Positions 13,585 to 56,462 of a stretch of DNA of 64,000 bases are shown piece after piece. Each line of letters opens with the position of its first letter. The first letter of the stretch is position 1. The notes under the pieces were generated by a model, which was given only the letters and a program-made list of their open reading frames with translations, did no database searches and was not told where the DNA came from. The position numbers and the translations under genes were made by a program. Source of the DNA: Spinellus fusiger (lineage: Eukaryota; Mucoromycota; Mucoromycetes; Mucorales; Phycomycetaceae); the NCBI GenBank assembly GCA_025094145.1, contig JALLLS010000042.1, positions 124,001 to 188,000 on the forward strand. Reading direction: 5' to 3'.

Positions 13585-13605
13585 GTTATTATAGTAATTC
13601 TATAG

Positions 13606-15127
13606 TTCAAAGTATTTTTATTTTTGGGTGTTGGTTGCTATTTGCACATTGGGCATGTTAGCCACCCTATGAGAACTTTTGAACAATTAAGATATACATA
13701 TAAACACTTTCAAATACAAAATTGGAAAAAATAAATGTAAGGAAAAAAAGAAACAGAAAGATAAGAGTATATAAAACCTCAAAATGAGGGAAAAAATAAA
13801 GAGAAATATGAGAAATGAGAGTAAATGACAATGCAGACATAGACATTAGTTTGAGCCTAATCCCACAAGCTTTCAATAGACCAAAGATTGGTCTATTTAC
13901 AAGTCTTGTTGGGTGTGTTGATTGTTTCCCTTGACTCCTTCCATGGCTGAGTCAGACCCAAATGCCTAGAGGGCTTCTTTTTCAAGGGTGGAGGGAGGGC
14001 TGGTGACTGTGGCCTTGGCCTTGAGGTCTGCCAAGAGCTTCTCAAAGGCAATGGTGGATAGACAGGGTGTGGTAATGCTTGAGCCAAAGTGGCAAGCAAT
14101 ACTGTGCCCTAAATGAGTGGGGGCACAAAGACAGGTGTTGGACACTTGTTGCTCAAAGAGTTTTTGGGCCATTACAGCCTTGGTGCTATCTGACTCCTGC
14201 TGGAGCTTAGGGTCTGCAATCACTGTTGCAGCTACTGGATCAAAGCTTGCCTGTGGCTTGATCTTTGATTTCTCAAGTTTCTCCTTGAGTTCTTGCTTGA
14301 AGCTACCATGTACAAGCAGTGCAATTGTGCCCCTTGCAGGGAAGTGGATGTCTATGATCCATGACTGTTGGATCTTCAGTGATCCCAACATCTTGTGGAT
14401 CTGACTGTACTTGAGGTAGCAGCAACAGGGCAAGTATACAAAGTTGTATACTGAGGGCCCAGTAGGCTCTTGTAAGGCCCAAACTGTTTGTGCTCTAAGC
14501 ACTGCTCTGGCCTTTGCTGTCTTCTTTGGTGGGGAGTAGTTCTTTTTAGCCATGTTGGCATAAGTGACAGTAGCCTTTTCTATGGCATCTGTGGGTTTTG
14601 CTGTGGGGATGGGTGTGGGAGTAGGGGTGGGAGGTGATTTGGGTGCATTATCTGCACTCTTGGCATTGATCTGAGCCTGGAGAGATGTAATAAGGACATC
14701 CTTGACCTTGACTTGTGCTTCCAATTCCTGGATGCAGAGTCCAATTGTTGCAATTTGTCTCTGAATATCTGACAGAAATGCCATCATCTGCTGGGTGAAG
14801 GTATCAGACTTTTCTACCTCAGTCATTTGATACTTGTAAGTATTTGCACAAGTGCATTTGGCAAGTAGTCTGGGTTTTCTGCTGTCTGAGTTAGGAATGG
14901 TGGTGGCAGTGGTGGCCTCAGACACAAAGGGTCTGACAGGTGCTGGTACAGGAGGTTGCTTGATGGTTGGTGGTTGGCCAAGATCCATAGTTGGTGTATC
15001 CAATGTGTACTGTATACTATGTGGGTGGATAGGGATTGTTGCTGATGGATGGATGTTACTTATGTTGAGTTTTTCAATTTGTATTTTTACTCTTTTGGGG
15101 TAATATTGATTACACAAAAGAGCCAAG
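13606..15127 (-). mobile_element. ORF1-only (half-LINE, HAL1-like) element with 17-bp TSD (LINE-I)
   Basis: Flanked by identical TTATAGTAATTCTATAG (13589-13605 and 15128-15144). On the minus strand it holds a single ORF1 and goes straight into a 3' UTR that matches LINE copies at 45099-45398, 48725-49215, 54735-55117 and 56468-56970. The shared 3' end includes CATAGGGTGGCT and the terminal AAATACTTTGAA. No endonuclease/RT region lies between ORF1 and the 3' UTR. The right TSD overlaps the first bases of a Tc1 terminal repeat (TATAG, then TGGCTCATGG). Confidence 0.85.
13966..15126 (-). CDS. LINE ORF1 protein (nucleic-acid-binding, non-autonomous element)
   Basis: Open for 386 codons with stop TAG at 13966. 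The frame is open from the element's 5' edge; the first clear ATG gives MDLGQPPTIKQPP at about residue 46, so the true protein may be about 340 residues. It has a Pro/Thr-rich N-terminus and a coiled-coil-like stretch (QRQIATIGLCIQELEAQVKV). The conserved ORF1 core IIDIHFPARGTIALLVHGSF matches LLDICFPARSVLGLLVHNGY of the intact LINE at 22744-23781. It has no zinc knuckle. Intactness despite the lack of ORF2 suggests recent trans-mobilisation or recent origin (inference). Confidence 0.7.
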   Translation of the reverse strand: MALLCNQYYPKRVKIQIEKLNISNIHPSATIPIHPHSIQYTLDTPTMDLGQPPTIKQPPVPAPVRPFVSEATTATTIPNSDSRKPRLLAKCTCANTYKYQMTEVEKSDTFTQQMMAFLSDIQRQIATIGLCIQELEAQVKVKDVLITSLQAQINAKSADNAPKSPPTPTPTPIPTAKPTDAIEKATVTYANMAKKNYSPPKKTAKARAVLRAQTVWALQEPTGPSVYNFVYLPCCCYLKYSQIHKMLGSLKIQQSWIIDIHFPARGTIALLVHGSFKQELKEKLEKSKIKPQASFDPVAATVIADPKLQQESDSTKAVMAQKLFEQQVSNTCLCAPTHLGHSIACHFGSSITTPCLSTIAFEKLLADLKAKATVTSPPSTLEKEAL

Positions 15128-15141
15128 TTATAGTAATTCTA

Positions 15142-16499
15142 TAGTGGCTCATGGAAAACATATGTAGATTTCAAATTCAGACCCTAATTTCTTCCTTAAT
15201 TTTTTTTATTAAACATTCCTCATTTATTGCTTTTCCACCATAATGTCTACCTCATCTAACACCACCAACCAACCCATGAGACCTTGTGGAAACAAGAAGA
15301 AAAATATCAATGACTTCACTTGATGCCTCATTGCTCATGAGGCCACCATAAATGGGACCAGGCAGGTTGCCATTGCTGCTAGGTTTGGAGTCAGTGCACA
15401 GTTGGTTTTCTTTATTGTAAAGAGATATAAGGAAACTGGCTGCTTCAAGGCCAAAAAGAGCACTGGGTGCCAGTCCATTCTGACAGAGAGGGACAAGAGA
15501 GAAGTTGCCCACAAAGTGGCAAGAGATTCATTCCAGACAATGAATCAGCTTTTCAGCCAGATGACCACCAAAGTGTCCATGACCACTTTCTTAAAGATGA
15601 TGAAGAAGCTTGGCCTGTTATCTTGCAGGGTGGTCAAGAAGCCTTATTTGACCAAGAAGCACAAGAAGCTGAGGCTTGCTTGGTCTAAGGCCCACCTCCA
15701 CTGGACCAAGGACAACTGGAAGATGGTTATCTGGTCCAATGAGTCCAGATACCAGTTGGTCACCACCAACAACCATACCAGAGTAGTACAAAAAGTGAAT
15801 GAAGGACTGCTCCCAAAGAACGTCAAGCCCACTGTGAAGTTTGGAGGTGGCAGTGTAATGGTGTGGGGATCTTTCTCTGGTGAAGGTGTTGGGAGATTGG
15901 TGCCTGTGAAGGGCAGTATTGATAGTGCAAGATACATTGAGATCTTGAAGAAGGAATACTGACCTGAGCTGGCCCAACTCAAGGCACTGAATCCAGAGGT
16001 AGATTATGTTCTTCAAGAGGATAACGCCTCCTGCCACAAGAGCAGAGAGTCCAGGTTGTGAAAGGCAAAAGAGACCATTGCCACCATGGAGGGGTGGCCT
16101 TCCCAGAGCCCTGATCTCAACCCCATAGAGCACCTTTGGGAGGTGCTTGACAGGGCTATCTGCAAGAGGATGACCCCAAGAAACACTCTCCAGGATTTGG
16201 AGGTGCTTCTGTTGGAAGAATGGGAGAAAATCCCCAAGGACACCACAGACACCCTCATTTCCAGCATGCATCAGAGATGTAAGGCCATCATTGAGGCCAA
16301 TGGTGGAAACACAAAATATTAAGGGTTTCCACCCAATAAACTTGTATATAATATTCTGTTGACCTTCTTTATACTTCATCCAATTTTGAAGTCTCTACTG
16401 TGTGTTTAATGTGTGTTTTTATGACAAAGAATGAGTATTTCCTATTACAGAAGTATATTGGAAAATAAAAAATCTATGTAAGATTTCTACAAGGCACTG
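15142..16499 (+). mobile_element. Tc1-like transposon, 1358 bp (Tc1-1)
   Basis: Inserted at TA. The left end is TAGTGGCTCATGGAAAAC and the right end, reverse-complemented, is CAGTGCCTTGTAGAAAT, followed by TA at 16500-16501. It has the same length and terminal motif as the copy at 46750-48107. The left TA and first bases of the TIR were duplicated when LINE-I inserted there. Confidence 0.8.
15243..16322 (+). pseudogene. Tc1-1 transposase, inactivated
   Basis: Reading from ATG 15243 (MSTSSNTTNQPM) to TAA at 16322. It has a helix-turn-helix region (VAIAARFGVSAQLV) and a DDE core: VIWSNES (Asn in place of the first catalytic Asp), VLQEDNASCH (second Asp present) and SPDLNPIEHLWE (Glu present). 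In-frame stops: TGA after NDFT near 15330, TGA after LKKEY at 15961, and TGA after SRESRL near 16060. The NDFT* stop and the WSNES change are both shared with the copy at 46927-47991. Confidence 0.8.
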
Positions 16500-16501
16500 T
16501 A

Positions 16502-17041
16502 TATATGTAAAAATGTAGAATAGTATAAATAGTGAGAGCAGATGCACACTTTGGATCTTTGAGAAATATACCTTTATTTTACTATTAAAAATATGAAAGT
16601 ATTTGATCCATGGCATATTAATATACTAGAAATCCTTCCTATGTTTTTGGAAGTGATTGCTTTTGTAATTCTATATAGACTAATGTAGCAGATAGAAAAA
16701 GTATATAAGCTATCCATCTATTAGATAGAAGAAAGCTTTGCAAAATATATTTCTTATATTACAAATACACCTTTTGTTTCTGATTTTTTGAACATTACCA
16801 AGCACTCATTTTGCCTCTGATTCTTAACACTAGTGTTGTGGCAAGTAAGGCTTCTTCTTAAGTGATGGCTCTGAACTCTATGGTGTCTTGAAGTTTTTTT
16901 TCTTTTTTTCTTTCCCTCTCTCTTTCTTATGTACTATTCATCATAGCTAGTTTCCTTTCTCTTCTTTTGTCCATGTGACTACTATTCCAAGTGCTGCATG
17001 TCATAACGTGTCAGCCTATTCAATAAAGAATACAAAAAAAA
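16502..17041 (+). mobile_element. 3' UTR and A-tail of the outer LINE
   Basis: No ORF. It ends TTCAATAAAGAATAC then an A-run, directly followed by the right GCTATATGGCACA duplication. AATAAA is the polyadenylation-like signal. This is the continuation of the LINE fragment at 8031-8387 beyond the nested insertions. Confidence 0.65.
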
Positions 17042-17510
17042 GCTATATGGCACATGCCCTATAAAAAATTTTGCTAGCCAAGAAAACACAGATACAGCTG
17101 GTAGGAGTTGTAAGTGCTTTTTTACAGGCTGCTATATAATAAAAAAAATTATTCACAGTTAATAGAGTTGATAAAATATGTTAGTACAGTATTTTTACTT
17201 AGTTTTTGGACCTTTTCAAAAAAAATTCAGACATTCTCTTTTTTTTTTGGACAATTTCCATTTTAATTTCAGACGTTTATAAAAGGAAATTCAGAAAATT
17301 TCCATTCTAATTTCAGACATTTACAAAAGGAAATTCAGACAATTCCAATTTTTTATTGGACAAGTTTCTTTTATCTTCAGACTTTTTCCTTACTTAATTT
17401 AGACAAACTCTTATTTCAGAGAAGCAGTAAATTTTAACCTATTTTATTATCTCCTTAAACTTCACATTTATAATATTATTTTTTTAAAAAAAACTGAACT
17501 AAATAAAAAG

Positions 17511-18815: not shown

Positions 18816-19381
18816 GAAAGTAATGAGATTGAACAAAGATAATTTTTATTAAGTGAAGAGTGGTTCATTATTTATACTTTTTGTAGGTGCTTATCCTTTG
18901 GTGGTATTCTACCTTTTGGTAGTTAATGATTAGTTTATGGCATAGCTTATTGATAGATGCAACCATATGGTTGGTGTAGATGATTTATCCTATGGTAGTT
19001 TACATAGGTGTAGCTTTATGGTTGGTGTAGCTGTTCTACCTAATTGTAGACTACATGTTGGAGCCTTATAGTTGGTTCATTGAATAAGCACACCATTATA
19101 GAGCCATCTATTATGTCTTCACTTTTAATTGCCTTTGATAGGTCTTATTTAATCCACTAAGGATTTATAGATGAAGGCAGCTCATTAAGTGTCCAATAAT
19201 AATTTGAGCTTAGAAGGTTGATTTGTAGTTACAACCAATCAGTGAGATGATATAAAGATGTACTATGGTATATGTGTGCACTCAAGCTTTCATAGAGTAT
19301 TCTGAGTGTCACTCTATGAAAGCATACTACTCATGTTGACCAATTCATGAAGAATCTTTGGATTGAAGTTGGAACACAACA
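18796..19381 (-). repeat. Solo LTR (copy A) inside the DD34E transposon
   Basis: On the minus strand it starts TGTTGTGTTCCAACTTCAAT and ends in CA; flanks GAATGG and GATGG are a near-duplicated target. It belongs to the LTR family at 21151-21806, 28541-29196 and 36540-37099. Imperfect CCTTATGGTTGG/CCTATGGTAG units recur about every 30-40 bp inside. Confidence 0.75.
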
Positions 19382-19650: not shown

Positions 19651-19739
19651 AGCTCAAAAGATTGTCAGTTACCAATTTAAACACAATAATACTAAACCCG
19701 AAAGTAGAGACAGTGATAAGAGGAAACTGAGGATAACAA

Positions 19740-40145: not shown

Positions 40146-42395
40146 AATTGAAGTCAGTGACTTCCATACAAGAAAAAATGTCTTCAGCTCCCATACATTT
40201 ATGGATAGGTCTTTTTCCTCCAAGTTCCAGAATCCTGATGTCTGACAGTGATTGGAGGTCACTCCCCATCCTGTATCCAATGCATTTACATGAATTATCA
40301 CCACTGGGATCTTTGCTTGTTGGTGTTGAATAGGCAGTCTATTCTTCTGACTTGCAAAGGTCTCCCACCAAAGGAGTTCCTGTCTGCTCTCCAGTGATAA
40401 AAAGCATGGGTAATCCCAACTCTGTTTGTTCATATGTAGGTTCTTTGCCAGGTCTCTCTGCATAAACCTGATATGTAAGAGTGCTTTGCCTATGGCTGGA
40501 ATCATTGATATGACTTTGCCTAATAACCCCGCAATCCATCTGCACATCTGTGTCTGTAGTAATCTGGCTTGTTTCACTCTGGAAATTAACTTCTTCATTT
40601 TCTCCTGAGGAACTGTGATTTTCATTTGCTTTGTGTTGAACTTGAATCCTAAGAATTCTTGTGTTGTCTATGACATCAAAGAGCTCTTCTTCCAATTGAT
40701 AAGAAATCCCAATTTGCTCAAGTGGGTTGTTATCATATTGCAAGTTTCTTTCATCTTGGCTTCTGTCTTTTCCAATATGCAGATATCATTAAGGTAGTAC
40801 ATCAGACGAATTCCCTTTTCCTCATTTGTTCAATTGCATATCTCATAATCCTGGAGAAAAACCAAGGGGCTGCACTTACTCCAAAAGCTAGTGATCAGCA
40901 CTGATAAATTGTGTTCTGATGTGAGAAAGTCAAAAAGGGTCTGGATTCTGTATGGATTGGCACTACTACGTAGGCATCTTTCAAGTCTATTTTGCAGATG
41001 AGGTCGTTTTTCTCTACAATTTTCCGCAGTGCCATGGCTCCTTCCATCTTGAAGTGTTCTACTTGGAGGAATTGGTTTAGTTTTTGATAATCCAAGATAG
41101 GTCTTCTTTTTATTGCTTCTTGTACTGTAAAGAAGTTTGACAGAAACTGTTTGTATTGTATAGGTAACCTTTCTATAATTCCTTCTATTAGGAATTATTT
41201 TACTGCTGTGTCTACTGCTACTTGATCTTCTACTGTCATTTTCATTGGACCCTGGATCTATGGTTTGGGCACTTTTTCAAATTGTAGGCGATATCCTGAA
41301 GTTATCACTGATAATGGCCAATTGTGTGTTATTGTTGTTTTCCAATAATTGAGGAAGTGTACTAGTCTGTCCCCTGGTAGTATCCCGTCCATGGGAACAC
41401 TGTAGTTCTTTGATATTTCTTGTGTTAATGGTTGTATTATTGATATCTTTTGACATGGATCTTGTAATATTTTTTTCTAATTTATTTTATTTATTTTATT
41501 TTATTTTATTTTATTTATTTTTCGTTTTTTTGTTTATGAAGTCTGCTTTCTTTATTGAGACTCTTGGTTCGTGGGATAGCGTTACTGGGACTGTTATGTG
41601 AATGGGGCGCCACCTTGTTCTCTTCCCTAAAAACCGGAGCTAAAGTTGCTGTTAAAGTTGTTTCTGAATCCTCTTTGGTTTCCTCTGAAACCTCGTGAGG
41701 AATAATGATTTCCTCTGCTTCTAAATCCATTGGAGTGGCTGACTCCTTGGACCAATCTCTGCTCAAATCTTGCTTTGTTGATCTGCGCCATAAACTTCTC
41801 TGAGAAGGCATTTGAATTCCCTCCTTCATCCTGGCTCTCCAGGTGTTTGAGGCTGGCAGGGAGACGAAGTGCTTTGGTAGCGTAATCTCTGGCCTTTTCT
41901 TCTTGGACTTTTGCTGAAGTGTATTCATAGAGAGCCAAGCGTCTTGATTGCTCCACTGTCTGTTCAAAAAGCTTGTTGTCTGTATCTTCAAATTTGTCTT
42001 TTTCTCGTAAAAAGAAGAGTTGTTTGTAGATCTTTGTGGCTGCTTTAGCCTGAATTCTTGCTGTTTCTGTGATCTAATAAATGGAATGTATGATCTGATA
42101 GGTGTCGACCATTAATTTTTTTGAGTTATTGGGCTAAGTTTTTGTTGATGGTTTCAGGAGTTATCTATTCTCCACATCTGTACCTGTGTACATTTTTCTT
42201 GTAAGGCTTTGCTTTTTCTTTAAGGTCATAAAAGGGGATATTGTCCAAATAGGTGGCAATTCCCTCAGGAAGTACTGTGCTGTCCATTTGTCTTGGTCCT
42301 TCAACTTGGAGTTTTGACTGAAGCTCTTTTACTATTTATTACAATTGTTCTGCTGTGAGAATGTTGGGTGTGTTGTCATTGCTTGACATTATTTA
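40104..42395 (-). pseudogene. DIRS-like retroelement copy 1 (gag/pol part)
   Basis: Minus strand. Gag-like start MSSNDNTPNILTAEQ then stops. Two overlapping frames (41991-41515 and 41956-41627) follow, the latter ending in an RG-rich tail (FRSRGNHYSSRGFRGNQRGF). RT: ICKIDLKDAYVVVPIH, SLAFGVSAAPWFFSRIMRYA, and motif C YYLNDI where YLDD is expected. RNase H-like text follows (VIIHVNALDTGWGVTSNHC). Overlapping frames and KIDLKDAY/FG-S-AP motifs fit DIRS elements. The tyrosine recombinase end is missing. Bases 40798-42395 belong to the left arm of the big inverted repeat. Confidence 0.7.
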
Positions 42396-42919
42396 TTATA
42401 CGAATGCATGACTTAGAAAGATATGAAGTAGTAAAGATAGATTTTTATTTATTTATAGGAGAATAAAAGTGTGGCTCTTAAGAGCAATACCACATTGGAG
42501 GTCAGAGTGGAGGCAACAAAGATTGCTTTAGGAACAACATGCAATTTGAATCCCAAAAAACAAATATCAACACAGTTCTAATAAACATTGGCTTGATGTA
42601 CACACCCAAAGGGCAAAATTTCCCCGAAGCAAAGCATAGGTTGCAAAATCAATAAATATAACTTTTGATAAGACATAACAGCGCAATCGGTCATCAAAAG
42701 GTAAAACTTTGTGTTTAGAGAAGAAAACTGAACAACATAATAGCAATAAAACCTAAGAACAAATATTCTGTTTTAGGGTTTTATTATAATTATAATAGTA
42801 GTGGTAATAGTAAAGAGATCACACAAGCTTCAATGGTAAACGCCTCCGTATTACCACATGACATTCACTTACTTATAAAATCTAACAAAAGTCTGTCTCT
42901 TTCTGCTTTGTCTCATTAA
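42396..42919. other. P450 upstream region (promoter), copy A
   Basis: 524 bp between the DIRS gag start and the P450 ATG. AT-rich, with an ATTATAATTATAATAG stretch near 42785 and a pyrimidine-rich leader (CTGTCTCTTTCTGCTTTGTC) just before the ATG. Repeated identically in the right arm. Confidence 0.4.
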
Positions 42920-44966
42920 ATGTCTTCATTCTTATCACTCCCGAATCCTCAAGTTATCAGTGAAATCTTGAATGATTCAAAACTACCACTGATGAGTGCT
43001 GTGGCTCTTGTTACTGCTGCCTATTCAGTATATTATATTATGAAAAAGGACAAAAACCAAGACTTTAGCTCAATCCCAATGCCAAAAGGAAACTACCCAA
43101 TTGTTGGTAAGAACCATACCATGAATTATTGAAAGATTCATCATGTATTTTAGGCCACATACCACACCTTGTTAAATCTCTCGAACTTAAACTTCATGAA
43201 TGGCATAAAGAATTGGGTAAATAGTGTGTTCTATTCATGTTGGCATAGATTAACTTATACACTTCCAGGGCCTATTATTCATATCAAGATGGGCGCAAAA
43301 GACTTCATCATTATATCTGATCCAGGACTTGCCCATAAAGTATTTGTAACTAATGGGGTTAGCACTTCTTCACGTCCACCTCATAGATTTAGTGATAAAT
43401 ATCACAGTCATGATGGCAGGTAAAATGCAACAAATCTATGGTGTGTATAGAGATCTAATTTCTACTTTCTCTTTGAACTTTAGAGGCGTTATTTTTGCTA
43501 ATTATGGAAAAAGATGGACAGACGCAAGAGCAGCTGGTAAAGGGAAAAAAAACTCAAGCTCTTAGTTGTATTAATTATGTATCATAGTTGCCAATTTCTT
43601 ATCACCCAAGGCTGTGAATGCTTCTAATGATGTACTCTTATTTGAAGCAAAAAATCTTATAAAAGAATTGATAGCACAAACAAAGTCAAAGAAGAGCGTG
43701 AATCCATTTAACTATGCTAACTGTGCCTCTCTTAATGTGGTATTGGGATTATATTGTACGATGCGTGTGGATTCATCTGAAGATCCGTTATACAAAGAGA
43801 TTATGGATGCTATTGATGTTATTGTACAGAAGGCCAGTTTTGAAGAAGACATAAGCTCGTACATTCCTGCTTTATCTTTTATTGACTACATACGTGGTAA
43901 AGATAAGAAAGACAGTGAATGGGTTCGTAATTCACGTGACCCTCTCATGAAGAAGTTACTTAAAGAAGCCTTCGAGAGCGACACCAATTCAGCCTTCAAA
44001 AAGATACATGAATCGAATGAAAAGACCCAATTCGAGGAAAAAGATTTCATTGTGATTATGAGTGAGTTGAATTACATAAAGGCTCTCAGTATTCTACGAG
44101 ACTAAACTCATTTTTTAGATGATATTATTGCTGCTGGAACAGACACTGTTGCTACAACAATTTCGTGGGCTTTCCTTTTCTTATCACACCATCCAGAAAT
44201 CCAGAAAAAGATTTGTGATGAGATAGACACATTTGTTACCAAACATGAACGACTACCAGATTTCTCAGAACGTGAACATTTCCCCTATATGGTGTCTGTT
44301 CAAAGAGAAATATTACGCCATATCCCTATTTCTACTTTGAGTATTCCTCATGTTGCTGATAAGGATAGTCAGTATATTATATCTGCTCAATACTAAAGGA
44401 AATTGACTTATCTTCTCTCATTTTATGTAGTCATAATTGATAACTATCTGATCAAAAAAGGATCAACACTTCTTAGCAATATGTATACTATGCACCTAGA
44501 TCCTGATGTTTATTCCGAACCAGATAAGTTTATTCCGGAGCGATATATGAACAACAAAAGTACAATGTTTGCATCAGCAAATGGAAACACAAGTGAGCGC
44601 GATCACTTCAACTTTGGATGGGGAAGGTAAAAATAAATAGCATAATATCACCTATCTTTGATTTACTAATGTTAATGTGTGGCGCTATAAAGACGTATTT
44701 GCCCTGGAATTTATCTGGTAATATCTCCAAGAAATATTTGAGTTTGCCTTTTAACAAAATAATTTCATTTGGCCATTCAATAGGCTGAGGCAGAGCTTTT
44801 TTATGTTTATGTCAATCTTTGGTCACGCTGTACAATTGAGCCAATGCTTGATTCCAATAATAATCCTGTATATACCGATTATACGATATCTATACCCTAT
44901 GGTTTGACTCTCCGTCCTACTCCTCATGAATTAAGATTTGTTGAGCGTCCTGACAAATTACTTTAA
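42920..44966 (+). CDS. Cytochrome P450 monooxygenase, copy A
   Basis: Nine exons: 42920-43106, 43154-43216, 43269-43419, 43484-43536, 43588-44061, 44119-44367, 44431-44626, 44693-44717, 44784-44966; 526 residues, all GT-AG and in frame. N-terminal membrane anchor (LPLMSAVALVTAAYSVYYI), proline-rich hinge (IPMPKGNYPIVGHIPHL), I-helix AAGTDTVATTISWAF, K-helix ExxR in SVQREILRHIP, PERF-like FIPERYM, and heme loop FNFGWGRRICPG with the cysteine ligand. It is a microsomal class II P450 that oxidises a hydrophobic substrate with electrons from P450 reductase. The style is like CYP509-type families of Mucorales (from memory; not searched). Complete and apparently functional. An identical-looking copy lies in the opposite arm. 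Confidence 0.93.
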
Positions 44967-45098
44967 AATAAACTATACTGTTAGAACACACAATTAGAGC
45001 ATCAATCTATTCACTCTGCCAAATCAGCTAATATTTGAAAATAATCGTTTAAATGACTCACATTGAAGCTTTTCTGAAAAATACATGGAGATATACAG

Positions 45099-45398
45099 TT
45101 CAAAGTATTTTTAATTTTTGGGTGTAGTTTTCTATTCGCGCTTTGGGCATATCAGCCACCCTATGAGAACTTTTGTGAAATAAATGGGAATAGACATATA
45201 AACACTTCAAATACAAAAGTGAAAAAAAGTAATGCAAACGAATGGGAAACAGAAGGACAGAGAAATAAAAAACCTCAAATGAGGGGAAAAAAATGAGAAA
45301 ATGAGAAATGATTGTAAATGAGAATTATGAATAGACATCCAAAAGGCCATAAAGTCAGCAAGGAAACCAGGACACCAAAAAAGATAACCGTCATCCTG
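45099..45398 (-). mobile_element. LINE 3' end (mirror copy of LINE-II), cut at the arm boundary
   Basis: Reverse complement of 48916-49215 with the same target flank CATGGAGATATACAG (45084-45098). It ends abruptly at 45398, the inner breakpoint of the inverted repeat, where the other arm carries 796 more bases of the LINE. Confidence 0.85.
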
Positions 45399-45454
45399 TT
45401 CTTAGATTCTACACTGCCTTTAATTATAGCACATTTATTCTTATTTTGTTTTCG

Positions 45455-46747
45455 ACAGTCTAAATAGGCAATAAAATATTTATGGATTAACACAAGATTT
45501 GGAATAGTTGTTCTTCAGATGATTATCTACATTTTTTATTATAAAGATATTGCTCAGTACTTTGTAGCAAAGCCTTTATTCTTCATCACAGTAGAGCACC
45601 TCCTTGGCATGCTATCTACTAAATTTTCCATAATTTCATTTGGGATCTTCTGCTATTCACTACGCAAGCATCATTCAAGTTGTTTTGTATTTGTTATGCT
45701 TGTTCGACGTGGCTCAATCTTCTTTTCAAAATAAGCCCAGACATGCTCAATTGGGTGAAGATCTGGACTTTGTGCAGGCCAAAAATCAAAACATTCAATC
45801 ATACATCTCTTGTTTGTACCATCTACTATATGTTCCTGTGTGGCAAGGAGCACCATCTTCTTGAAAGAGAATGGTCTCATTGAGGTTCTCTTTCAATTTT
45901 TAGAACCAAGGAAGAAAATATTTGGCAAGTACATTGACATATTTGTATTGATTAACTGATCCTTCCAAGAGTACAAGAGGTCCTACACCTCCACGCCAAA
46001 AGCAACCTCATATCATGACTGAACCCTTGCCATACTTGTATGTTCTTTGCGTATAACGCTCCTCATACCTTTCACCTTTTTTCCTGATCACTCTAGTCCC
46101 TTTATCATTGCCCACAACTGTAAAACGGGACTCATCAGACCAAACGATGTTACTCAACCTCTCCACTGGTCAATCAGTCTTGTTTTTACACTATTCTCAT
46201 CGTCTTTGCTTGTGAGTAAGTGTCATACCAGATTTTCTTGATGGTGAGCATGAAAAAAACCCCCGAGTTCATTCATGCATTTTAAAAATATGCTACGGCA
46301 AATATCTACGCCTGCATCATTATTTTTTGAATGATATGCAATTGTTTGTATAGAGTTTCTATGAATAGACAAAACGATAGCCAATTTTGAAGTAGATGAG
46401 ACCTTCTCAGGTCTTTCTATACGAATTTTGAGTTGAAGTGTGCCTTTGTTTTTATACAATAGAATGATCCTGCCCACTGTGCTCTTTGGGATGTCAATAT
46501 CGTCAGAAATCTCCTGATAAGTAGCATGTCTTTTTCCATTGTCCTATAATTTGATCTATAATAAACATATCATGCTTTCTTTTTTTGATGAGACTATATT
46601 TATGTTCTTGGCTAAGAGTCTACTTATTTCTATTGCTTGAAGTCATCTTTTGATTAAGTTATAAAAGAAAAGAAAAGACCTCTATTTTATTTTTGAAGAA
46701 TAAAAAATAGAGATTTATCTTTTCTTTAGTCACATTACATGGGAGTG
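45455..46747 (-). mobile_element. Tc1/mariner-like element (Tc1-3a)
   Basis: On the minus strand it begins after TA with CACTCCCATGTAATGTGAC (46747 downward) and ends near ACAGTCTAAATAGGC. It matches the shorter element 53525-54302. Transposase text: HTH region (MGRIILLYKNKGTLQLKIRI), WSDES (first Asp present), FQEDGAPCHTG (second Asp), SPDLHPIEHVWAYF (Glu). Several stops, at least one a Trp-to-TGA change (MI*GCF), and frameshifts make it dead. Confidence 0.75.
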
Positions 46748-46749
46748 TA

Positions 46750-48107
46750 CAGTGGCTTTCAAAATAATAATGGACTTTTTTCATTCCCCGGTATAATTCT
46801 GTAATAGGAAATACTTATTCTTTGTAATAAAAACACACATTAGACACACAGTAGAGACTTGAAAATTGGATGAAGTATAAAGAAGGTCAACAGGATAATA
46901 AATAAAAATTTCTTGGGTGTAAACCCTTAATATTTAGTGTTTTCACCTTTGGCCTCAATGACAGCCTTGCATCTCCGCCCCATGCTGGCAATGAGAGCGT
47001 CTGTGGTGTCCTTGGGATTTTTTTCCCATTCTTCCAACAGAAGCACCTCCAAATCCTGAAGGGAGCTTTCTGGGGTCATTATCTTCCTGATGGCCTTGTC
47101 AAACATCTCCCAAAGATGCTCTATAGGGTTGAGGTCGGGGCTTTGCAATGGCCACCCCTCCATAGTGGCAATGGTTTCTTGTGCCTTCCACAACCTGGAC
47201 TCTTTGCTTTTATGACAGCTAGTATTGTCCTTTTGAAGAACTTAACATACCGCTGGATTCAGTACCATGAGTTGAGCTAGCTCAGGGCAGTAGTTATCCT
47301 TTAAGATCTCAATGTATTCTCTACTGTCTCTACTGTCCTTCACAGGCACCAACCTTCCAACACCTTCATCAGAGAAAGAACCCCACACCATCACACTAAC
47401 ATCACCAAACTTCATGGTGGGTTTGATGTTCTTTGGGAGCAGCCCCTTCTTCTTGCGCACCACTCTGTTGCGGTTATTGGTCCTCATCAGTTGGTACTTT
47501 GACTCATTGGACCAGATGACTTTCTTACAGTCTTCCTCAGTCCAATGGAGGTGGGCCTTAGCCCAAGCAAACCTCAGCTTCTTATGTTTAATAGTGAGAA
47601 AAGGTTTTTTGACCACCCTGCAAGAAAATAGGCCAGGCTTCTTCATCAATTTTCTAAAAGTGTTCATGGACACTTTGGTGGTCATCTGCTTGCAAAGTTG
47701 ATTCATTGTCTGGAATGAATCCCTTCCCACTTCGCGACTGACCTCTCTCTCGTCCCTCTCCTTCCGAATGGACTTGTGCCCAGTGCTCTTCTTGGCCTTG
47801 AAACAGCCAGTTTCCTTATATCTCTTTACGATAAGGGAAACAAACTGCTTAATAACTCCAAACCTAGCAGAAATGGCAACCAGACTGGTCCCATTTACGG
47901 TGGCCTCGTGAGCAATGAGGCATCAAGTGAAGTCATCGATATTATTTTTTCTGTTCCCAAGAGGTCTTGTGGGTTGTTCGGTGGTGTTAGATGAGGTAGA
48001 TATTAGGGTGGAAAAGCAATAAATGAAGAATGTTTAATAATAAAAAAATTCAAGGCTAAAGTTTGGGTCTGAATCTGAAATGTCCATTGTTTTATTGAAA
48101 GCCACTG
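46750..48107 (-). mobile_element. Tc1-like transposon, 1358 bp (Tc1-2)
   Basis: TIRs CAGTGGCTTTCAA (46750) and TTGAAAGCCACTG (48095-48107), flanked by TA at 46748-46749 and 48108-48109. Same length as Tc1-1. It lies head to tail against Tc1-3a, and its right end is the landing site of LINE-II. Confidence 0.9.
46927..47991 (-). pseudogene. Tc1-2 transposase, inactivated
   Basis: Collinear with Tc1-1: QTMNQLCKQMTTKVSMNTF, KKVIWSNESKYQL (Asn for the first catalytic Asp), SVMVWGSFSDEGVGRLVPV, then a break near 47240, and SPDLNPIEHLWEMFDKAI to TAA at 46927. It carries TGA at the same place as Tc1-1 (DFT*CLIAHEA). The start ATG position reads ATA. Inactive. Confidence 0.8.
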
Positions 48108-48119
48108 TATATCTCCATG

Positions 48120-49215
48120 TTCAGAGTAAAGCCAGATGGATTAAGCTACATGGCAATGTACTCTGGGAAAATGCTCAAAGAATAAGACGGGCTCACAACC
48201 CTCCTAAATATCCATTAAAAGTAGCTTATCTTGAACGTCTTCAAAGTGAAATTACTAGTCTAGTATGTGGCAAGAATCCGCTGGTGACGGTAGCCCGTGG
48301 ACTATGTAGACCTGTTTGGGATCCAATTCTTCTACTACCGTGCACGCGCAAAGAAAGACATCGTCTACTAAAATGGAGGATTGCTTGGTTACCACCAACA
48401 CCTTCAGTTCCTTGCCAATGTGGCCACCCATCTGCCAATCGGGACCACTTTCTCACTTGCACATTCGTTGACCATGAACGCTCCACGTTCTTGTTCTTCT
48501 TAGTTCCTGCACCACCACAAGACGTTCATCCAATTGACTATTGTCTAAATCTTCTGCCGCGCACGGTTAAGTCTTTTGTTAAATGGCGAGATCTTTGGCC
48601 CAGTTTGTTAATACTGCTGCAAGCCATTGATCGAGCCACGTCTACTCGAGACTTTAAGGTGGAGCCATCAACTGGTAGCTTGCTCATTGAGGCTGCTGAT
48701 GGGTGTGATGAGCGGGAACACTGATGCTGTTATAGAGTGAAAAAGGACTCCTTCAGCAACAGACGCTGTATCCTCACTTCTCCTCCGATCTCCCCTCTAC
48801 CACCCATTCTTAGCCCGTTTAGCAAAGCCAGAAGCTGCTAGTGTAGTTGCTGTATTTGTGTCCTCAGGATTGTCCGAGTTGCTCTAAGTATCCCTCGTTG
48901 GATTTCGAATCACCACAGGATGACGGTTATCTTTTTTGGTGTCCTGGTTTCCTTGCTGACTTTATGGCCTTTTGGATGTCTATTCATAATTCTCATTTAC
49001 AATCATTTCTCATTTTCTCATTTTTTTCCCCTCATTTGAGGTTTTTTATTTCTCTGTCCTTCTGTTTCCCATTCGTTTGCATTACTTTTTTTCACTTTTG
49101 TATTTGAAGTGTTTATATGTCTATTCCCATTTATTTCACAAAAGTTCTCATAGGGTGGCTGATATGCCCAAAGCGCGAATAGAAAACTACACCCAAAAAT
49201 TAAAAATACTTTGAA
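48120..49215 (+). mobile_element. 5'-truncated LINE with 15-bp TSD (LINE-II)
   Basis: CTGTATATCTCCATG flanks it (48105-48119 and 49216-49230). The left copy starts inside the Tc1-2 TIR. It encodes the last 200 codons of a LINE ORF2 (to TGA 48724), with KWRIAWLPPTPSVPCQCGHP, a Cys/His block CQCGHPSANRDHFLTC and VHPIDYCLNLL, the last matching [11 protein letters not shown] of LINE-A. The 3' UTR (48725-49215) ends AAATACTTTGAA and is shared with LINE-I, III and IV. Confidence 0.88.
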
Positions 49216-49347
49216 CTGTATATCTCCATGTATTTTTCAGAAAAGCTTCAATGTGAGTCATTTAAACGATTATTTTCAAATATTAGCTGATTTGGCAGAG
49301 TGAATAGATTGATGCTCTAATTGTGTGTTCTAACAGTATAGTTTATT

Positions 49348-51393
49348 TTAAAGTAATTTGTCAGGACGCTCAACAAATCTTAATTCATGAGGAGTAGGAC
49401 GGAGAGTCAAACCATAGGGTATAGATATCGTATAATCGGTATATACAGGATTATTATTGGAATCAAGCATTGGCTCAATTGTACAGCGTGACCAAAGATT
49501 GACATAAACATAAAAAAGCTCTGCCTCAGCCTATTGAATGGCCAAATGAAATTATTTTGTTAAAAGGCAAACTCAAATATTTCTTGGAGATATTACCAGA
49601 TAAATTCCAGGGCAAATACGTCTTTATAGCGCCACACATTAACATTAGTAAATCAAAGATAGGTGATATTATGCTATTTATTTTTACCTTCCCCATCCAA
49701 AGTTGAAGTGATCGCGCTCACTTGTGTTTCCATTTGCTGATGCAAACATTGTACTTTTGTTGTTCATATATCGCTCCGGAATAAACTTATCTGGTTCGGA
49801 ATAAACATCAGGATCTAGGTGCATAGTATACATATTGCTAAGAAGTGTTGATCCTTTTTTGATCAGATAGTTATCAATTATGACTACATAAAATGAGAGA
49901 AGATAAGTCAATTTCCTTTAGTATTGAGCAGATATAATATACTGACTATCCTTATCAGCAACATGAGGAATACTCAAAGTAGAAATAGGGATATGGCGTA
50001 ATATTTCTCTTTGAACAGACACCATATAGGGGAAATGTTCACGTTCTGAGAAATCTGGTAGTCGTTCATGTTTGGTAACAAATGTGTCTATCTCATCACA
50101 AATCTTTTTCTGGATTTCTGGATGGTGTGATAAGAAAAGGAAAGCCCACGAAATTGTTGTAGCAACAGTGTCTGTTCCAGCAGCAATAATATCATCTAAA
50201 AATGAGTTTAGTCTCGTAGAATACTGAGAGCCTTTATGTAATTCAACTCACTCATAATCACAATGAAATCTTTTTCCTCGAATTGGGTCTTTTCATTCGA
50301 TTCATGTATCTTTTTGAAGGCTGAATTGGTGTCGCTCTCGAAGGCTTCTTTAAGTAACTTCTTCATGAGAGGGTCACGTGAATTACGAACCCATTCACTG
50401 TCTTTCTTATCTTTACCACGTATGTAGTCAATAAAAGATAAAGCAGGAATGTACGAGCTTATGTCTTCTTCAAAACTGGCCTTCTGTACAATAACATCAA
50501 TAGCATCCATAATCTCTTTGTATAACGGATCTTCAGATGAATCCACACGCATCGTACAATATAATCCCAATACCACATTAAGAGAGGCACAGTTAGCATA
50601 GTTAAATGGATTCACGCTCTTCTTTGACTTTGTTTGTGCTATCAATTCTTTTATAAGATTTTTTGCTTCAAATAAGAGTACATCATTAGAAGCATTCACA
50701 GCCTTGGGTGATAAGAAATTGGCAACTATGATACATAATTAATACAACTAAGAGCTTGAGTTTTTTTTCCCTTTACCAGCTGCTCTTGCGTCTGTCCATC
50801 TTTTTCCATAATTAGCAAAAATAACGCCTCTAAAGTTCAAAGAGAAAGTAGAAATTAGATCTCTATACACACCATAGATTTGTTGCATTTTACCTGCCAT
50901 CATGACTGTGATATTTATCACTAAATCTATGAGGTGGACGTGAAGAAGTGCTAACCCCATTAGTTACAAATACTTTATGGGCAAGTCCTGGATCAGATAT
51001 AATGATGAAGTCTTTTGCGCCCATCTTGATATGAATAATAGGCCCTGGAAGTGTATAAGTTAATCTATGCCAACATGAATAGAACACACTATTTACCCAA
51101 TTCTTTATGCCATTCATGAAGTTTAAGTTCGAGAGATTTAACAAGGTGTGGTATGTGGCCTAAAATACATGATGAATCTTTCAATAATTCATGGTATGGT
51201 TCTTACCAACAATTGGGTAGTTTCCTTTTGGCATTGGGATTGAGCTAAAGTCTTGGTTTTTGTCCTTTTTCATAATATAATATACTGAATAGGCAGCAGT
51301 AACAAGAGCCACAGCACTCATCAGTGGTAGTTTTGAATCATTCAAGATTTCACTGATAACTTGAGGATTCGGGAGTGATAAGAATGAAGACAT
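49348..51393 (-). CDS. Cytochrome P450 monooxygenase, copy B
   Basis: Mirror image of copy A: exons 51207-51393, 51097-51159, 50894-51044, 50777-50829, 50252-50725, 49947-50195, 49688-49883, 49597-49621, 49348-49530. The frames I compared encode the same protein, with intact ExxR and FNFGWGRRICPG motifs. The only difference noticed inside the gene is a T5 instead of T6 run just before an intron acceptor. Both copies keep the same 5' and 3' flanks, so both should be expressed alike. Convergent transcription across the spacer could yield complementary RNA (inference). Confidence 0.93.
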
Positions 51394-51925
51394 TTAATGA
51401 GACAAAGCAGAAAGAGACAGACTTTTGTTAGATTTTATAAGTAAGTGAATGTCATGTGGTAATACGGAGGCGTTTACCATTGAAGCTTGTGTGATCTCTT
51501 TACTATTACCACTACTATTATAATTATAATAAAACCCTAAAACAGAATATTTGTTCTTAGGTTTTATTGCTATTATGTTGTTCAGTTTTCTTCTCTAAAC
51601 ACAAAGTTTTACCTTTTGATGACCGATTGCGCTGTTATGTCTTATCAAAAGTTATATTTATTGATTTTGCAACCTATGCTTTGCTTCGGGGAAATTTTGC
51701 CCTTTGGGTGTGTACATCAAGCCAATGTTTATTAGAACTGTGTTGATATTTGTTTTTTGGGATTCAAATTGCATGTTGTTCCTAAAGCAATCTTTGTTGC
51801 CTCCACTCTGACCTCCAATGTGGTATTGCTCTTAAGAGCCACACTTTTATTCTCCTATAAATAAATAAAAATCTATCTTTACTACTTCATATCTTTCTAA
51901 GTCATGCATTCGTATAATAAATAAT
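51394..51925. other. P450 upstream region (promoter), copy B
   Basis: Mirror of 42396-42919 between P450 copy B and the DIRS gag start (ATG at 51924-51926). Confidence 0.4.
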
Positions 51926-53524
51926 GTCAAGCAATGACAACACACCCAACATTCTCACAGCAGAACAATTGTAATAAATAGTAAAAGAGCTTCAGTCAAA
52001 ACTCCAAGTTGAAGGACCAAGACAAATGGACAGCACAGTACTTCCTGAGGGAATTGCCACCTATTTGGACAATATCCCCTTTTATGACCTTAAAGAAAAA
52101 GCAAAGCCTTACAAGAAAAATGTACACAGGTACAGATGTGGAGAATAGATAACTCCTGAAACCATCAACAAAAACTTAGCCCAATAACTCAAAAAAATTA
52201 ATGGTCGACACCTATCAGATCATACATTCCATTTATTAGATCACAGAAACAGCAAGAATTCAGGCTAAAGCAGCCACAAAGATCTACAAACAACTCTTCT
52301 TTTTACGAGAAAAAGACAAATTTGAAGATACAGACAACAAGCTTTTTGAACAGACAGTGGAGCAATCAAGACGCTTGGCTCTCTATGAATACACTTCAGC
52401 AAAAGTCCAAGAAGAAAAGGCCAGAGATTACGCTACCAAAGCACTTCGTCTCCCTGCCAGCCTCAAACACCTGGAGAGCCAGGATGAAGGAGGGAATTCA
52501 AATGCCTTCTCAGAGAAGTTTATGGCGCAGATCAACAAAGCAAGATTTGAGCAGAGATTGGTCCAAGGAGTCAGCCACTCCAATGGATTTAGAAGCAGAG
52601 GAAATCATTATTCCTCACGAGGTTTCAGAAGAAACCAAAGAGGATTCAGAAACAACTTTAACAGCAACTTTAGCTCCGGTTTTTAGGGAAGAGAACAAGG
52701 TGGCGCCCCATTCACATAACAGTCCCAGTAACGCTATCCCACGAACCAAGAGTCTCAATAAAGAAAGCAGACTTCATAAACAAAAAAACGAAAAATAAAA
52801 TAAAATAAAATAAAATAAAATAAAATAAAATAAAATAAATTAGAAGAAAAAATATTACAAGATCCATGTCAAAAGATATCAATAATACAACCATTAACAC
52901 AAGAAATATCAAAGAACTACAGTGTTCCCATGGACGGGATACTACCAGGGGACAGACTAGTACACTTCCTCAATTATTGGAAAACAACAATAACACACAA
53001 TTGGCCATTATCAGTGATAACTTCAGGATATCGCCTACAATTTGAAAAAGTGCCCAAACCATAGATCCAGGGTCCAATGAAAATGACAGTAGAAGATCAA
53101 GTAGCAGTAGACACAGCAGTAAAATAATTCCTAATAGAAGGAATTATAGAAAGGTTACCTATACAATACAAACAGTTTCTGTCAAACTTCTTTACAGTAC
53201 AAGAAGCAATAAAAAGAAGACCTATCTTGGATTATCAAAAACTAAACCAATTCCTCCAAGTAGAACACTTCAAGATGGAAGGAGCCATGGCACTGCGGAA
53301 AATTGTAGAGAAAAACGACCTCATCTGCAAAATAGACTTGAAAGATGCCTACGTAGTAGTGCCAATCCATACAGAATCCAGACCCTTTTTGACTTTCTCA
53401 CATCAGAACACAATTTATCAGTGCTGATCACTAGCTTTTGGAGTAAGTGCAGCCCCTTGGTTTTTCTCCAGGATTATGAGATATGCAATTGAACAAATGA
53501 GGAAAAGGGAATTCGTCTGGTGTA
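51924..53524 (+). pseudogene. DIRS-like retroelement copy 2
   Basis: Mirror of copy 1 with the same early TAA, the two overlapping frames at 52322-52798 and 52357-52686, an (AAAAT)n tract at 52796-52840, and RT part MDYQKLNQFLQVEHFKMEGA ... KIDLKDAYVVVPIH, a TGA before SLAFGVSAAPWFFSR. It ends at MRKREFV, where Tc1-3b inserted at TA. The downstream RT and RNase H of copy 1 are missing here. Confidence 0.7.
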
Positions 53525-54302
53525 CACTCCCATGTAATAAGTGACTAAAGAAAAGATAAATCTCTATTTTTTATTCTTCAAAAATAAAATAGAGGTCTTT
53601 TCTTTTCTTTTATAACTTAATCAAAAGATGACTTCAAGCAATAGAAATAAGTAGACTCTTAGCCAAGAACATAAATATAGTCTCATCAAAAAAGAAAGCA
53701 TGATATGTTTATTATAGATCAAATTATAGGACAATGGAAAAAGACATGCTACTTATCAGGAGATTTCTGACGATATTGACATCCCAAAGAGCACAGTGGG
53801 CAGGATCATTCTATTGTATAAAAACAAAGGCACACTTCAACTCAAAATTCGTATAGAAAGACCTGAGAAGGTCTCATCTACTTCAAAATTGGCTATCGTT
53901 TTGTCTATTCATAGAAACTCTATACAAACAATTGCATATCATTCAAAAAATAATGATGCAGGCGTAGATATTTGCCGTAGCATATTTTTAAAATGCATGA
54001 ATGAACTCGGGGGTTTTTTTCATGCTCACCATCAAGAAAATCTGGTATGACACTTACTCACAAACATAACCAATGCAAAGCAGCTTGAATGATGCTTGCG
54101 TAGTGAATAGCAGAAGATCCCAAATGAAATTATGGAAAATTTAGTGGATAGTATGCCAAGGAGATGCTCTACTGTGATGAAGAATAAAGGCTTTGCTACA
54201 AAGCACTAAGCAATATCTTTATAATAAAAAATGTAGATAATCATCTAAAGAACAACTATTCAAAATCTTGTGTTAATCCATGAATATTTTATTATAAACA
54301 TC
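53525..54302 (+). mobile_element. Internally deleted Tc1/mariner copy (Tc1-3b)
   Basis: Starts CACTCCCATGTAATAAGTGAC after TA and contains the N-terminal transposase ORF (53796-54050, 84 residues identical to the 46477-46223 reading). It then jumps, at CTCACAAACATAACC, over roughly 500 bp of the catalytic region present in Tc1-3a and resumes at GCTTGAATGATGCTTGCG. It ends TTATTATAAACATCTTAGACTG. A deletion derivative lacking D, D and E. Confidence 0.7.
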
Positions 54303-54718
54303 TTAGACTGATAGATATGCCTCTATTTTTCAAAATAGTAATAACATTAATTTGCCATCCACTCATTTATTACATGGGACTGTATGTGCAATTATACACT
54401 GTAGATTTTAGTATGCATAATCAAGTCAATTCAATGAATAAAAATGATATTTTATTCACTCTTTTATCCTTTTTGTTTGATCTATGTTGGCTCTTGTCTA
54501 AATGATACACTTGCTAGCTATTTTACTTTGTGTCTATACCACCGAGCTTGGAACTATTTTGTCCAAATTAAGGAACGACACATGACGATCTTTCTGTACT
54601 CATTAATGTATTTTTTATACATATACAAATCCTGAGCCTGCGTGGCTTTTAGGTGACATGTGAAAGATCAACAAGAATGTATTTATAGTGCAGGTAGTAC
54701 ACTCTATGGGTGTTTTTA
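54303..54718. other. No gene recognised
   Basis: AT-rich DNA with only short hydrophobic open frames (for example 54317-54505). It ends in ACTCTATGGGTGTTTTTAAA beside the LINE-III target duplication. The DIRS reading does not resume after Tc1-3b. Confidence 0.4.
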
Positions 54719-54734
54719 AATACATGGAGTACAG

Positions 54735-55117
54735 TTCAAAGTATTTTTATTTTTGGGTGTTGGTTGCTATTTGCGCATTGGGCATGTTAGCCACCCTATG
54801 AGAACTTTTGAACAATTAAGATATACATATAAACACTTTCAAATACAAAAGTGGAAAAAATAAATGCAAGGAAAAAAAGAAACAGAAAGATAAGAGTATA
54901 TAAAACCTCGAAATGAGGGAAAAAATGAAGAGAAATATGAGAAATGAGAGAAAATGACAATGCAGACATAGACATTAGTTTGAGCCTAATCCCACAAGCT
55001 TTCAATAGACCAAAGATTGGTCTATTTACAAGTCTTGTTGGGTGTGTTGATTGTTTCCCTCGGCTCCTTCCATGGCTGAGTCAGACCCAAATGCCTGGAG
55101 GGCTTCTTTTTCAAGGG
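54735..55117 (-). mobile_element. Severely 5'-truncated half-LINE (LINE-III), 16-bp TSD
   Basis: AATACATGGAGTACAG flanks it (54719-54734, 55118-55133). The minus-strand sequence starts CCCTTGAAAAAGAAGCCCTC, the last codons of the ORF1 of LINE-I, and continues through the same ORF1/3' UTR junction to AAATACTTTGAA. It is therefore a separate retrotransposed copy of the ORF1-only structure. The right duplication ends inside the mariner TIR (TACAG, then TGGGATAG). Confidence 0.85.
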
Positions 55118-55130
55118 AATACATGGAGTA

Positions 55131-56462
55131 CAGTGGGATAGCAAAAAAAATTTGGCAAATTTAAAAAATTCGATAGATTTCATATTATCAATATAGTGTT
55201 CTTCTTGTATCAAGAGAAATAAAACGTATTTTCTACTTTAATAAAGCTCATATTATGTTTAAAAAAGGCTCTAGAATTTGTACATGTAATTTATTTTTAC
55301 ATTTACTTATAAAAAATTATCACAAATATAGCTTCAATAATGCGTACTCCCACCCTTGTTCTTGATGACTTCTTGCATTCGTGCTGGCATTGTCTCAATC
55401 AAAGAATTCTATGTTTTTAACTCAAAGGAACCCCAGGCTTCCTTTATTATCGTTTGAGCTTGTCCATCTTGAAAGAACTGTTATATCTCTCCTGGATCTT
55501 GTCTTTCATCTGCATCCAAAGGTTTCCAATGGGGTTCAGATCGGGTGATTGAGCAGGCCACTCCAAACTACCAACTCCTCTCTCTCTTTTCCAATCACTT
55601 GCTACAATACTTTTGTGAGTGGCTGCTTGACCTTCCATCAATATCAAGTGGCACTCTAGACCCTAGAAACGTAGCAATGACTCTTTATAGACTTTCTTGA
55701 AAAAATCAACAGCCTTTCGTTCATCCTTCTCAAGCATCACTAGTTCTGACTTCTCATCGTGACGAATGACTCCCCAGACCATGACTGAGGATCTTCCACT
55801 CTTGAATGTGGGAGCAAGACAATATTTTTTGTAAGCTTCTCCATCCTTACGCCAAACGTGAACCACTCGACTGTTCTTGCCAATTTCGAAACTACTTTCG
55901 TCAGTCCATATAACTTTTTTCCACATGTCAATGGTCCAGTGGAGATGTTCTTTGGCAAACATGAGTGTTCTTTCTTGATGTGTTTCATTCAAAAAAAGTT
56001 TCTTCTTTTCCACTCGGCTAAATATACCCTCTTCATGCAGTACACGTCTAACAGTGTGCTTGCTTCATTCTTTGGGTATTGCTGCAACTATCTCACTTGA
56101 AGTCAATCGTCTATTCTTGCCAACAACGTTCAGAAGGTGTCGTATTTCTATTTCATTGAATATTTTGGGTCTTCCTGAACTCTCTTGGAGTTTATTAGTT
56201 CCTGTTGTCTTTTGTTGATTTAGAACATTGTAGATTGTTTGCAGCTTTCAGTTCTTTCAACTACTTCCATTACTTTCATATTTGCTTGTCAAAAATTAAC
56301 AATGGTAAGTTTCTGCTCGTCTGTTAGTTGCATTGTAAATTAAATATGTATATACTCTTATTAAGAAGAAAGGAAGAAAACTGCTACAAGTGTCTCTTAT
56401 GTAAGATATGAAATACATCGAATTTCTATTAAATAAATGCCATTCTTCCTGTCTCTCCACTG
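55131..56462 (-). mobile_element. Mariner-like transposon, 1332 bp (mariner-4)
   Basis: Ends CAGTGGGATAGCAAAAAA (55131) and, reverse-complemented, CAGTGGAGAGACAGG (56462), with TA on both sides. Similarity continues inward to ATTCGATRKATTTCATA at about 55 bp. It sits inside the left target duplication of LINE-IV. Confidence 0.8.
55447..56333 (-). pseudogene. Mariner-4 transposase, catalytic residues lost
   Basis: From MQLTDEQK (56333) through HTH text to TAA 55447 in two main frames. First Asp is kept in KKVIWTDESSFEIG. The second motif reads LMEGQAATHKS, with no Asp where LM-x-D-x-A is expected. The third reads SPDLNPIGNLWMQM, with Gly in place of the catalytic Glu. A stop after KESLLRF (55663) adds to decay. 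Confidence 0.75.

Follow-up and report, generated by a model that had tools for sequence, protein, structure and literature searches.

In a 64,000 nt stretch of Spinellus fusiger DNA (contig JALLLS010000042.1, positions 124,001-188,000 of the forward strand), referred to here as the window, several copies of a long interspersed nuclear element (LINE) family, designated LINE-A, lie against the ends of Tc1/mariner transposons. The family was followed through the genome, which comprises 38.1 Mb in 197 contigs. Judged by its junctions, LINE-A is a target-specific LINE, most of its insertions being at one defined sequence and element: the 3' end of the LINE is joined to TACAG and, among TACAG sites, insertion is strongly steered to the tips of Tc1-like transposons, a preference shown statistically. 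It is moderately probable, and the reading favored here, that the endonuclease encoded by LINE-A itself nicks TACAG^, where the caret marks the cut, and is steered to the Tc1-like tips. A sequence-only reading of the window had proposed a target-specific system from three LINE insertions, flanked by target-site duplications, beside Tc1/mariner elements. The three insertions are present, with slightly shifted coordinates (Table 1); in each, TA(C/T)AG immediately precedes the LINE 3' end and the far side continues with the TGG... of a Tc1/mariner repeat.

Results

The LINE-A family

The LINE-A 3' pattern had 243 matches in the genome (132 + 111) and the reversed control had none. The statistics on 3' ends rest on the first 100 of the 243 matches listed, all of them exact, and at least one further exact copy exists. 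Inserted copies terminate in CTTTGAA, without poly(A), and range in length from 38 bp (locus L056) up to 5.2 kb, 5' truncation being present. The 5.2 kb member, at L033, has an open reading frame (ORF) 1 of 314 aa and an ORF2 of 1197 aa, in which a reverse transcriptase domain (RVT_1, E 2.9e-20) and an endonuclease domain (Exo_endo_phos, E 3.2e-6) were identified. Members of 1.5 kb, such as LINE-I, have ORF1 alone. Pfam gave no confident domain for ORF1. In an alignment of 14 sequences, query included, the APE endonuclease residues N10, E37, D135, D194 and H220 were invariant, while N137 and D219 were conserved in at least 90%; all of these columns are catalytic in APE endonucleases.

The best match of ORF2, by profile and by the fold of an AlphaFold model (mean pLDDT 76.7), was human L1 ORF2p, a match in the PDB that does not assign LINE-A to the Tx1, R1, L1 or Tad1 clades. 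The model also matched the endonuclease domains of L1, TRAS1 and R1Bm, and its reverse transcriptase matched the L1 and R2 folds; the endonuclease piece by itself, searched by sequence against the PDB, matched nothing. With a reverse transcriptase, an APE endonuclease, 5' truncation and target-site duplications all present, LINE-A is, by its sequence, an APE-type non-long terminal repeat retrotransposon.

In a search with ORF2, 39 of 1200 candidates were scored and 21 matches spanned nearly the full ORF2. Eight of the 21, with an identity of 98-100%, had no stop codon, seven being complete and one starting from residue 21, so that LINE-A must have moved recently. The closest named ORF2 proteins were mostly from Mucorales (Circinella, Lichtheimia, Rhizopus and Mucor), and the best relative of ORF1 was a Spinellus fusiger protein. 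The relatives in Circinella, Lichtheimia and Phycomyces are known as proteins alone.

The 3' junction

TACAG directly preceded 88 of the 100 listed exact LINE-A 3' ends. The other 12 followed TATAG (four), CACAG (three), AACAG, ATCAG, TACAA or, in two cases, TACAG with an extra TTCAG. In the last two (L080 and L081) the additional bases lie between TACAG and LINE-A (TACAG-TTCAG-TTCAAAG) and are perhaps the product of a slip at the start of reverse transcription. Upstream of the junction, in an analysis limited to junctions ending in AG or AA, there was no strong consensus except at position -6, where T was rare.

Target-site duplications were sought at 68 junctions. At 34 of them there was an exact duplication measuring 10 bp or more, and in 33 of these its length was 14-17 bp, a narrow range that fits a fixed second cut; the remaining 34 had no exact duplication of this length in the available flanking DNA. 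As different sites carry different duplications, the insertions are independent. A single segmental duplication as the source of the cases was ruled out, the duplications being different at every resolved site.

The far side of the insertions

The LINE-A 5' ends were sought independently, and the 40 best of 71 candidates were all read outward. Because these ends were found on their own, the sample was not selected by what lies beyond them. Another LINE-A copy adjoined eight of the 40, leaving 32 direct far sides that start with TACAG (28), TATAG (2), TACAA (1) or TACTG (1). The far side was a Tc1/mariner-type tip in 24 of the 32. A Tc1/mariner transposase near the junction or in-register tip homology identified 23 of these, while the 24th, L059, is an element of 726 bp whose repeats are paired and which encloses the remnant of a mariner-3-like transposase. 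L032 and L056 were found at tips.

No tip was present in eight of the 32 (L010, L022, L030, L048, L063, L066, L068 and L069), each examined over at least about 1.7 kb, and these far sides still read TACAG (seven) or TATAG (one). As the motif is kept at sites that are not tips, where no cut by a Tc1 transposase is expected, the LINE machinery itself seems to be the reader of the motif. L022 was considered as a tip and rejected, its transposase belonging to a mariner-3 element that starts 642 bp beyond the junction. At L048, mariner-3 transposase matches lie 1.4-2.3 kb beyond the junction, together with one weak match at 407 bp. Among the 3' flanks, that of L011 matched the inside of mariner-3 and that of L023 the inside of Tc1.

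The association seen in the window thus extends to the genome, where most copies follow TACAG, most direct far sides are tips, and flanks and duplications differ. The sequence-only reading had taken the tip of the terminal inverted repeat as the common factor; this holds for the 24 tips, but TACAG is nearly obligatory and the tip is not.

A second sample, taken in contig order, consisted of 20 exact 3' ends at 19 sites; counted by hand and partly overlapping the 5'-end sample, it yielded 11 tips, three other sites (L036, L047 and L048) and five that were left unassigned. All 47 far sides collected included 37 that were tips or paired-repeat ends and 10 that were neither. The 37 include L044 and L045, both of them second copies that happened to lie in the loci retrieved, and L032 lies outside the 47. 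A non-self transposase match started at most 400 bp from the junction in 33 of the 47, L059 included, and a paired repeat ending in CTG-TA was present in 13; many of the far sides extended over no more than about 230 bp. Reading frames from six of these far sides and from four transposons of the window served as transposase queries, with self matches excluded.

Preference for tips beyond the motif

In our own reading of the window, five of the 144 TACAG sites are tips, and the same five are found among the 18 TACAGTG sites. LINE-A insertions at TACAG were at tips in 20 of 28 cases, compared with the 5/144 of the window (p = 1.9e-15, L059 not scored as a tip). The difference persisted for TACAGTG (18/19 insertions versus 5/18 in the window, p = 2.9e-5) and for TACAGTGG (9/9 versus 4/8, p = 0.03). 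The window is rich in transposons, so the comparison should be conservative. It is improbable that the endonuclease merely prefers TACAG and that the link to tips reflects genome composition or the survival of harmless insertions. TACAG is the sole near-constant feature, and the eight far sides that are not tips would be expected on this account, but it is strongly disfavored by the abundance of tips among the insertions relative to a transposon-rich window, and a survival bias would favor any non-genic site rather than tips in a single orientation.

The orientation was apparent in a test that used coordinates alone, with 100 LINE ends and 200 listed of 381 tips (two tip patterns, which possibly share some tips). 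Same-strand Tc1 tips lay ahead of LINE-A in 25 cases and behind it in one. Tips on the opposite strand, mostly the other ends of the same transposons, were ahead in 20 and behind in one. Several of the distances from LINE to tip, at about 1.53 and 5.2 kb, equaled the length of a LINE.

Restoration of the tip and order of events

The target-site duplication contains flank-TA-CAG. Consequently the transposon keeps its TA and its whole terminal repeat, LINE-A lies just outside, and the target is rebuilt. The LINE had been described as inserted within the terminal inverted repeat; it does join after TA-CAG, but the duplication leaves it outside an intact repeat. The further suggestion that transposon tips are a safe haven for LINE-A is a reasonable one.

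Similar junctions would arise in the reversed order if Tc1 elements, whose repeats start with CAG, had entered the TA of a TACAG beside a LINE, thereby mimicking a LINE in a tip. This seems, from the sequence, to have occurred once, at LINE-IV and mariner-4. On the 5' side of LINE-IV is AATACATAGAGTACAC, which reads as similar to the LINE-III duplication, and the order was probably LINE-IV, then mariner-4 into the TA of the LINE-IV 3' duplication, and then LINE-III into the new mariner-4 tip. As a general explanation the reversed order is very improbable, since it predicts a TA-CAG past the other end of the transposon and this was found in none of 13 paired elements. It is refuted for these 13, so the LINEs entered existing tips.

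LINE-A copies also stack at TACAG-LINE junctions, with one duplication repeated between the stacked copies. All five stacks that were followed to the end (L003, L005, L033, L056 and L057) end on a tip, which in L056 adjoins a 38-bp copy. The stack at L006 reaches a third LINE, the ends of those at L007, L021, L028, L052 and L067 lie beyond the DNA read, and L023 and L024 are further stacks. At six loci (L006, L013, L020, L025, L026 and L038) a LINE-A copy lies on the side away from the tip.

The relative age of stacked copies was estimated from the nearest other 3' end over 200 bp, a rough proxy that is biased because the loci were fetched by their likeness to a young copy. By this measure the copy away from the tip was the younger, clearly in L007, L021, L028 and L033 and slightly in L003, L005, L023 and L024, and the third copy was the youngest in L006. 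The age order of stacks was considered as proof that the tip is always hit, and the result went the opposite way. Both the tip and the TACAG-LINE junctions seem to be used as targets.

A second LINE family near the tips

LINE-B is a LINE unrelated to LINE-A. The window copy has a 12-14-bp duplication, and its end lies 20 bp outside the TATAG to which the 3' end of LINE-I is joined. Twenty LINE-B 5' ends were scored, two of which (L109 and L111) share the same flank. Seven of the 20 copies (the window copy, L099, L102, L103, L105, L108 and L114) lie 18-22 bp outside TA(C/T)AG, which is followed by LINE-A in five and by a tip in two (L108 and L114); the other 13 are not so placed. Left flanks were obtained from 14 copies, six of them tip-linked, and of these six only L103/L128 gave a duplication. 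The two readable duplications, those of the window copy and L103/L128, both end 6 bp before TA(C/T)AG^.

Discussion

The proposed mechanism of insertion

In the mechanism that we favor, the L1-like APE endonuclease of ORF2 would nick the strand 5'-TACAG^. The position and the motif are observed, and the cut by the element's own enzyme is what we infer. Reverse transcription of the LINE RNA would then start on the 3' end of TACAG, the cDNA strand being the continuation of this ...TACAG 3' end, and a cut in the second strand about 14-17 bp away would generate the duplication. Within TACAG sites the element would be steered to Tc1-like tips, and either the rebuilt tip or the new TACAG-LINE junction would be open to further insertion, giving rise to stacks. 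The off-tip TA(C/T)AG sites and the conserved endonuclease favor a cut by the element's own enzyme; help from the tip is favored by a preference for tips that exceeds the effect of the motif and by the presence of a second LINE.

One form that such help could take is suggested by the transposases. According to PMC5481204, the first nick made by Mos1 transposase falls three bases into the repeat on the non-transferred strand, which corresponds to TA-CAG^. The same first nick is given for mariner and Sleeping Beauty in part of PMC7827188, the strand having been inferred by its authors for Sleeping Beauty. By its position in the sequence, LINE-A is joined at the bond where the first nick of Tc1/mariner transposases falls. 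LINE-A might therefore prime on the transposase nick: the first cut would leave flank-TACAG with a free 3' OH that is extended by the cDNA, two LINE families would settle at Tc1 tips on this primer, and the LINE-A endonuclease would have come to read TACAG. The points in its favor are 1) the coincidence of both position and polarity with the nick described in these reports, 2) a tip preference above that from TACAGTG, 3) the second LINE family, 7 of whose 20 copies are near such a tip or in a stack and 4) the lack of clear use of mariner-3 tips, whose transposase was perhaps inactive. Priming of this kind is nevertheless rather unlikely. Eight of the 32 far sides and the TACAG-LINE stack junctions have the same motif and are not transposon ends, and LINE-A has kept a conserved endonuclease. 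Moreover, such a nick in one strand is usually transient.

Several observations weigh against the view that LINE-A cuts with its own endonuclease and is steered to Tc1-like tips: 1) the tip preference is not explained by the motif, even as TACAGTG, so that a further determinant is required, and none was identified, 2) the baseline for the preference is the transposon-rich window alone, 3) L041 and L050, full-length copies at tips, show no matching duplication, 4) the younger copy of a stack is often away from the tip, so that TACAG-LINE junctions may themselves be targets, 5) the clustering of LINE-B at another offset hints at a feature of the site rather than one endonuclease and 6) mariner-3 tips showed no clear excess, with five same-strand tips ahead of LINE-A and two behind, and one opposite-strand tip ahead and three behind, among 100 listed of 232.

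The last result also restricts the earlier proposal that Tc1/mariner tips in general are the target, which stands for Tc1-like tips and gains no clear support from those of mariner-3; equal use of all Tc1/mariner tips was ruled out on this ground. Two forms, TACACTCCC and TACAGTCCC, predominate among the mariner-3 tips, and several elements have one of each. Even the TACAG form is not clearly a target of LINE-A, although mariner-3 elements are found near L022 and L048.

Comparison with other target-specific LINEs

The targets of target-specific LINEs include rRNA, snRNA and tRNA genes, telomeres, microsatellites and transposons, according to parts of PMC8869645 and PMC4640811. Other transposable elements are named as LINE targets in a passage of the former; a passage of the latter has transposons among the listed targets and assigns APE endonucleases to the target-specific members of the Tx1 and R1 clades. 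In the open-licence literature no LINE directed to Tc1/mariner tips was found, subscription papers being outside the scope of the search.

Tx1L of Xenopus is reportedly tied to one transposon family, Tx1D, and like LINE-A is a LINE with a fixed position on a DNA transposon. LINE-A differs in that its target is the extreme end of Tc1/mariner elements of many families and in that it restores this tip. With R1, TRAS/SART and other target-specific APE LINEs, LINE-A shares an APE endonuclease, a fixed cut position, a multicopy target and, presumably, target-primed reverse transcription, but the targets of elements of this type are rRNA genes or telomeric repeats. The architecture of an endonuclease joined to a reverse transcriptase is common to LINE-A and human LINE-1 ORF2p. 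L1, however, uses a loose T-rich site and has a poly(A) tail, whereas LINE-A has TACAG^ and no poly(A). Target-preferring LINEs of fungi include CNL1 of Cryptococcus and MoTeR of Magnaporthe, as described in part of PMC12810828. In the same passages, CNL1 inserts into its own copies in arrays, much as LINE-A stacks, but CNL1 and MoTeR are R2-related elements with telomeric targets, in contrast to the APE endonuclease and transposon tips of LINE-A.

The Tc1/mariner superfamily is widespread, and the tip targeted by LINE-A is common to many of its families. Since insertion rebuilds the tip, the target is not consumed but multiplies by itself. The coincidence of the join with the first nick of the transposase raises the question of whether a break made by one class of mobile element can serve another as the primer for integration. 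A ready-made specificity for TACAG^ could also be of interest for site-directed insertion by reverse transcriptases.

Other features of the window

Table 1. Coordinates of the LINEs and transposons within the 64,000 nt window.
Feature	Position	Strand	Description
LINE-B	8400..13585	-	unrelated LINE; zinc-knuckle ORF1, weak APE endonuclease remnant, reverse transcriptase, poly(A) end
LINE-I target-site duplication, copy at LINE 3' end	13589..13605		TTATAGTAATTCTATAG
LINE-I	13606..15127	-	1.52-kb ORF1-only LINE-A; both ends common to the 5.2-kb member
LINE-I ORF	13966..15126	-	386 aa
LINE-I target-site duplication, copy at LINE 5' end	15128..15144		last 5 bases are TA and the first 3 bases of Tc1-1; beyond 15144, TGGCTCATGG of Tc1-1
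Tc1-1	15142..16499	+	Tc1-like, broken transposase; tip TATAG followed by TGGCTCATGG; other end CACTG-TA
LINE-A fragment	45099..45399	-	copy of LINE-II 3' end in 3.9-kb inverted duplication (41474-45399 / 48915-52839)
Tc1-2	46750..48107	-	Tc1-like; 21/24 tip bases repeated inverted at opposite end
LINE-II target-site duplication	48105..48119 and 49216-49230		CTGTATATCTCCATG; first copy adjoins Tc1-2
LINE-II	48120..49215	+	5'-truncated LINE-A with C-terminal part of ORF2
LINE-III target-site duplication	54719..54734 and 55118-55133		AATACATGGAGTACAG; second copy followed by TGGGATAGC of mariner-4
LINE-III	54735..55117	-	383-bp 5'-truncated LINE-A
mariner-4	55131..56462	-	mariner-like, broken transposase
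LINE-IV	56468..56970	-	older LINE-A copy on the other side of mariner-4

The LINE-A fragment is the end of LINE-II carried along by the inverted duplication and was for this reason not counted as an independent insertion. The arms of the duplication are 99-100% alike and carry what appears, by eye, to be a cytochrome P450 gene; Tc1-2 and one copy of mariner-3 sit between them. At 46746-46750 a single TA is common to mariner-3 and Tc1-2 (GTG-TA-CAG), one transposon having landed exactly beside the tip of another. A 14-bp unit forms a tandem array at 59680-60158 (27 overlapping matches).

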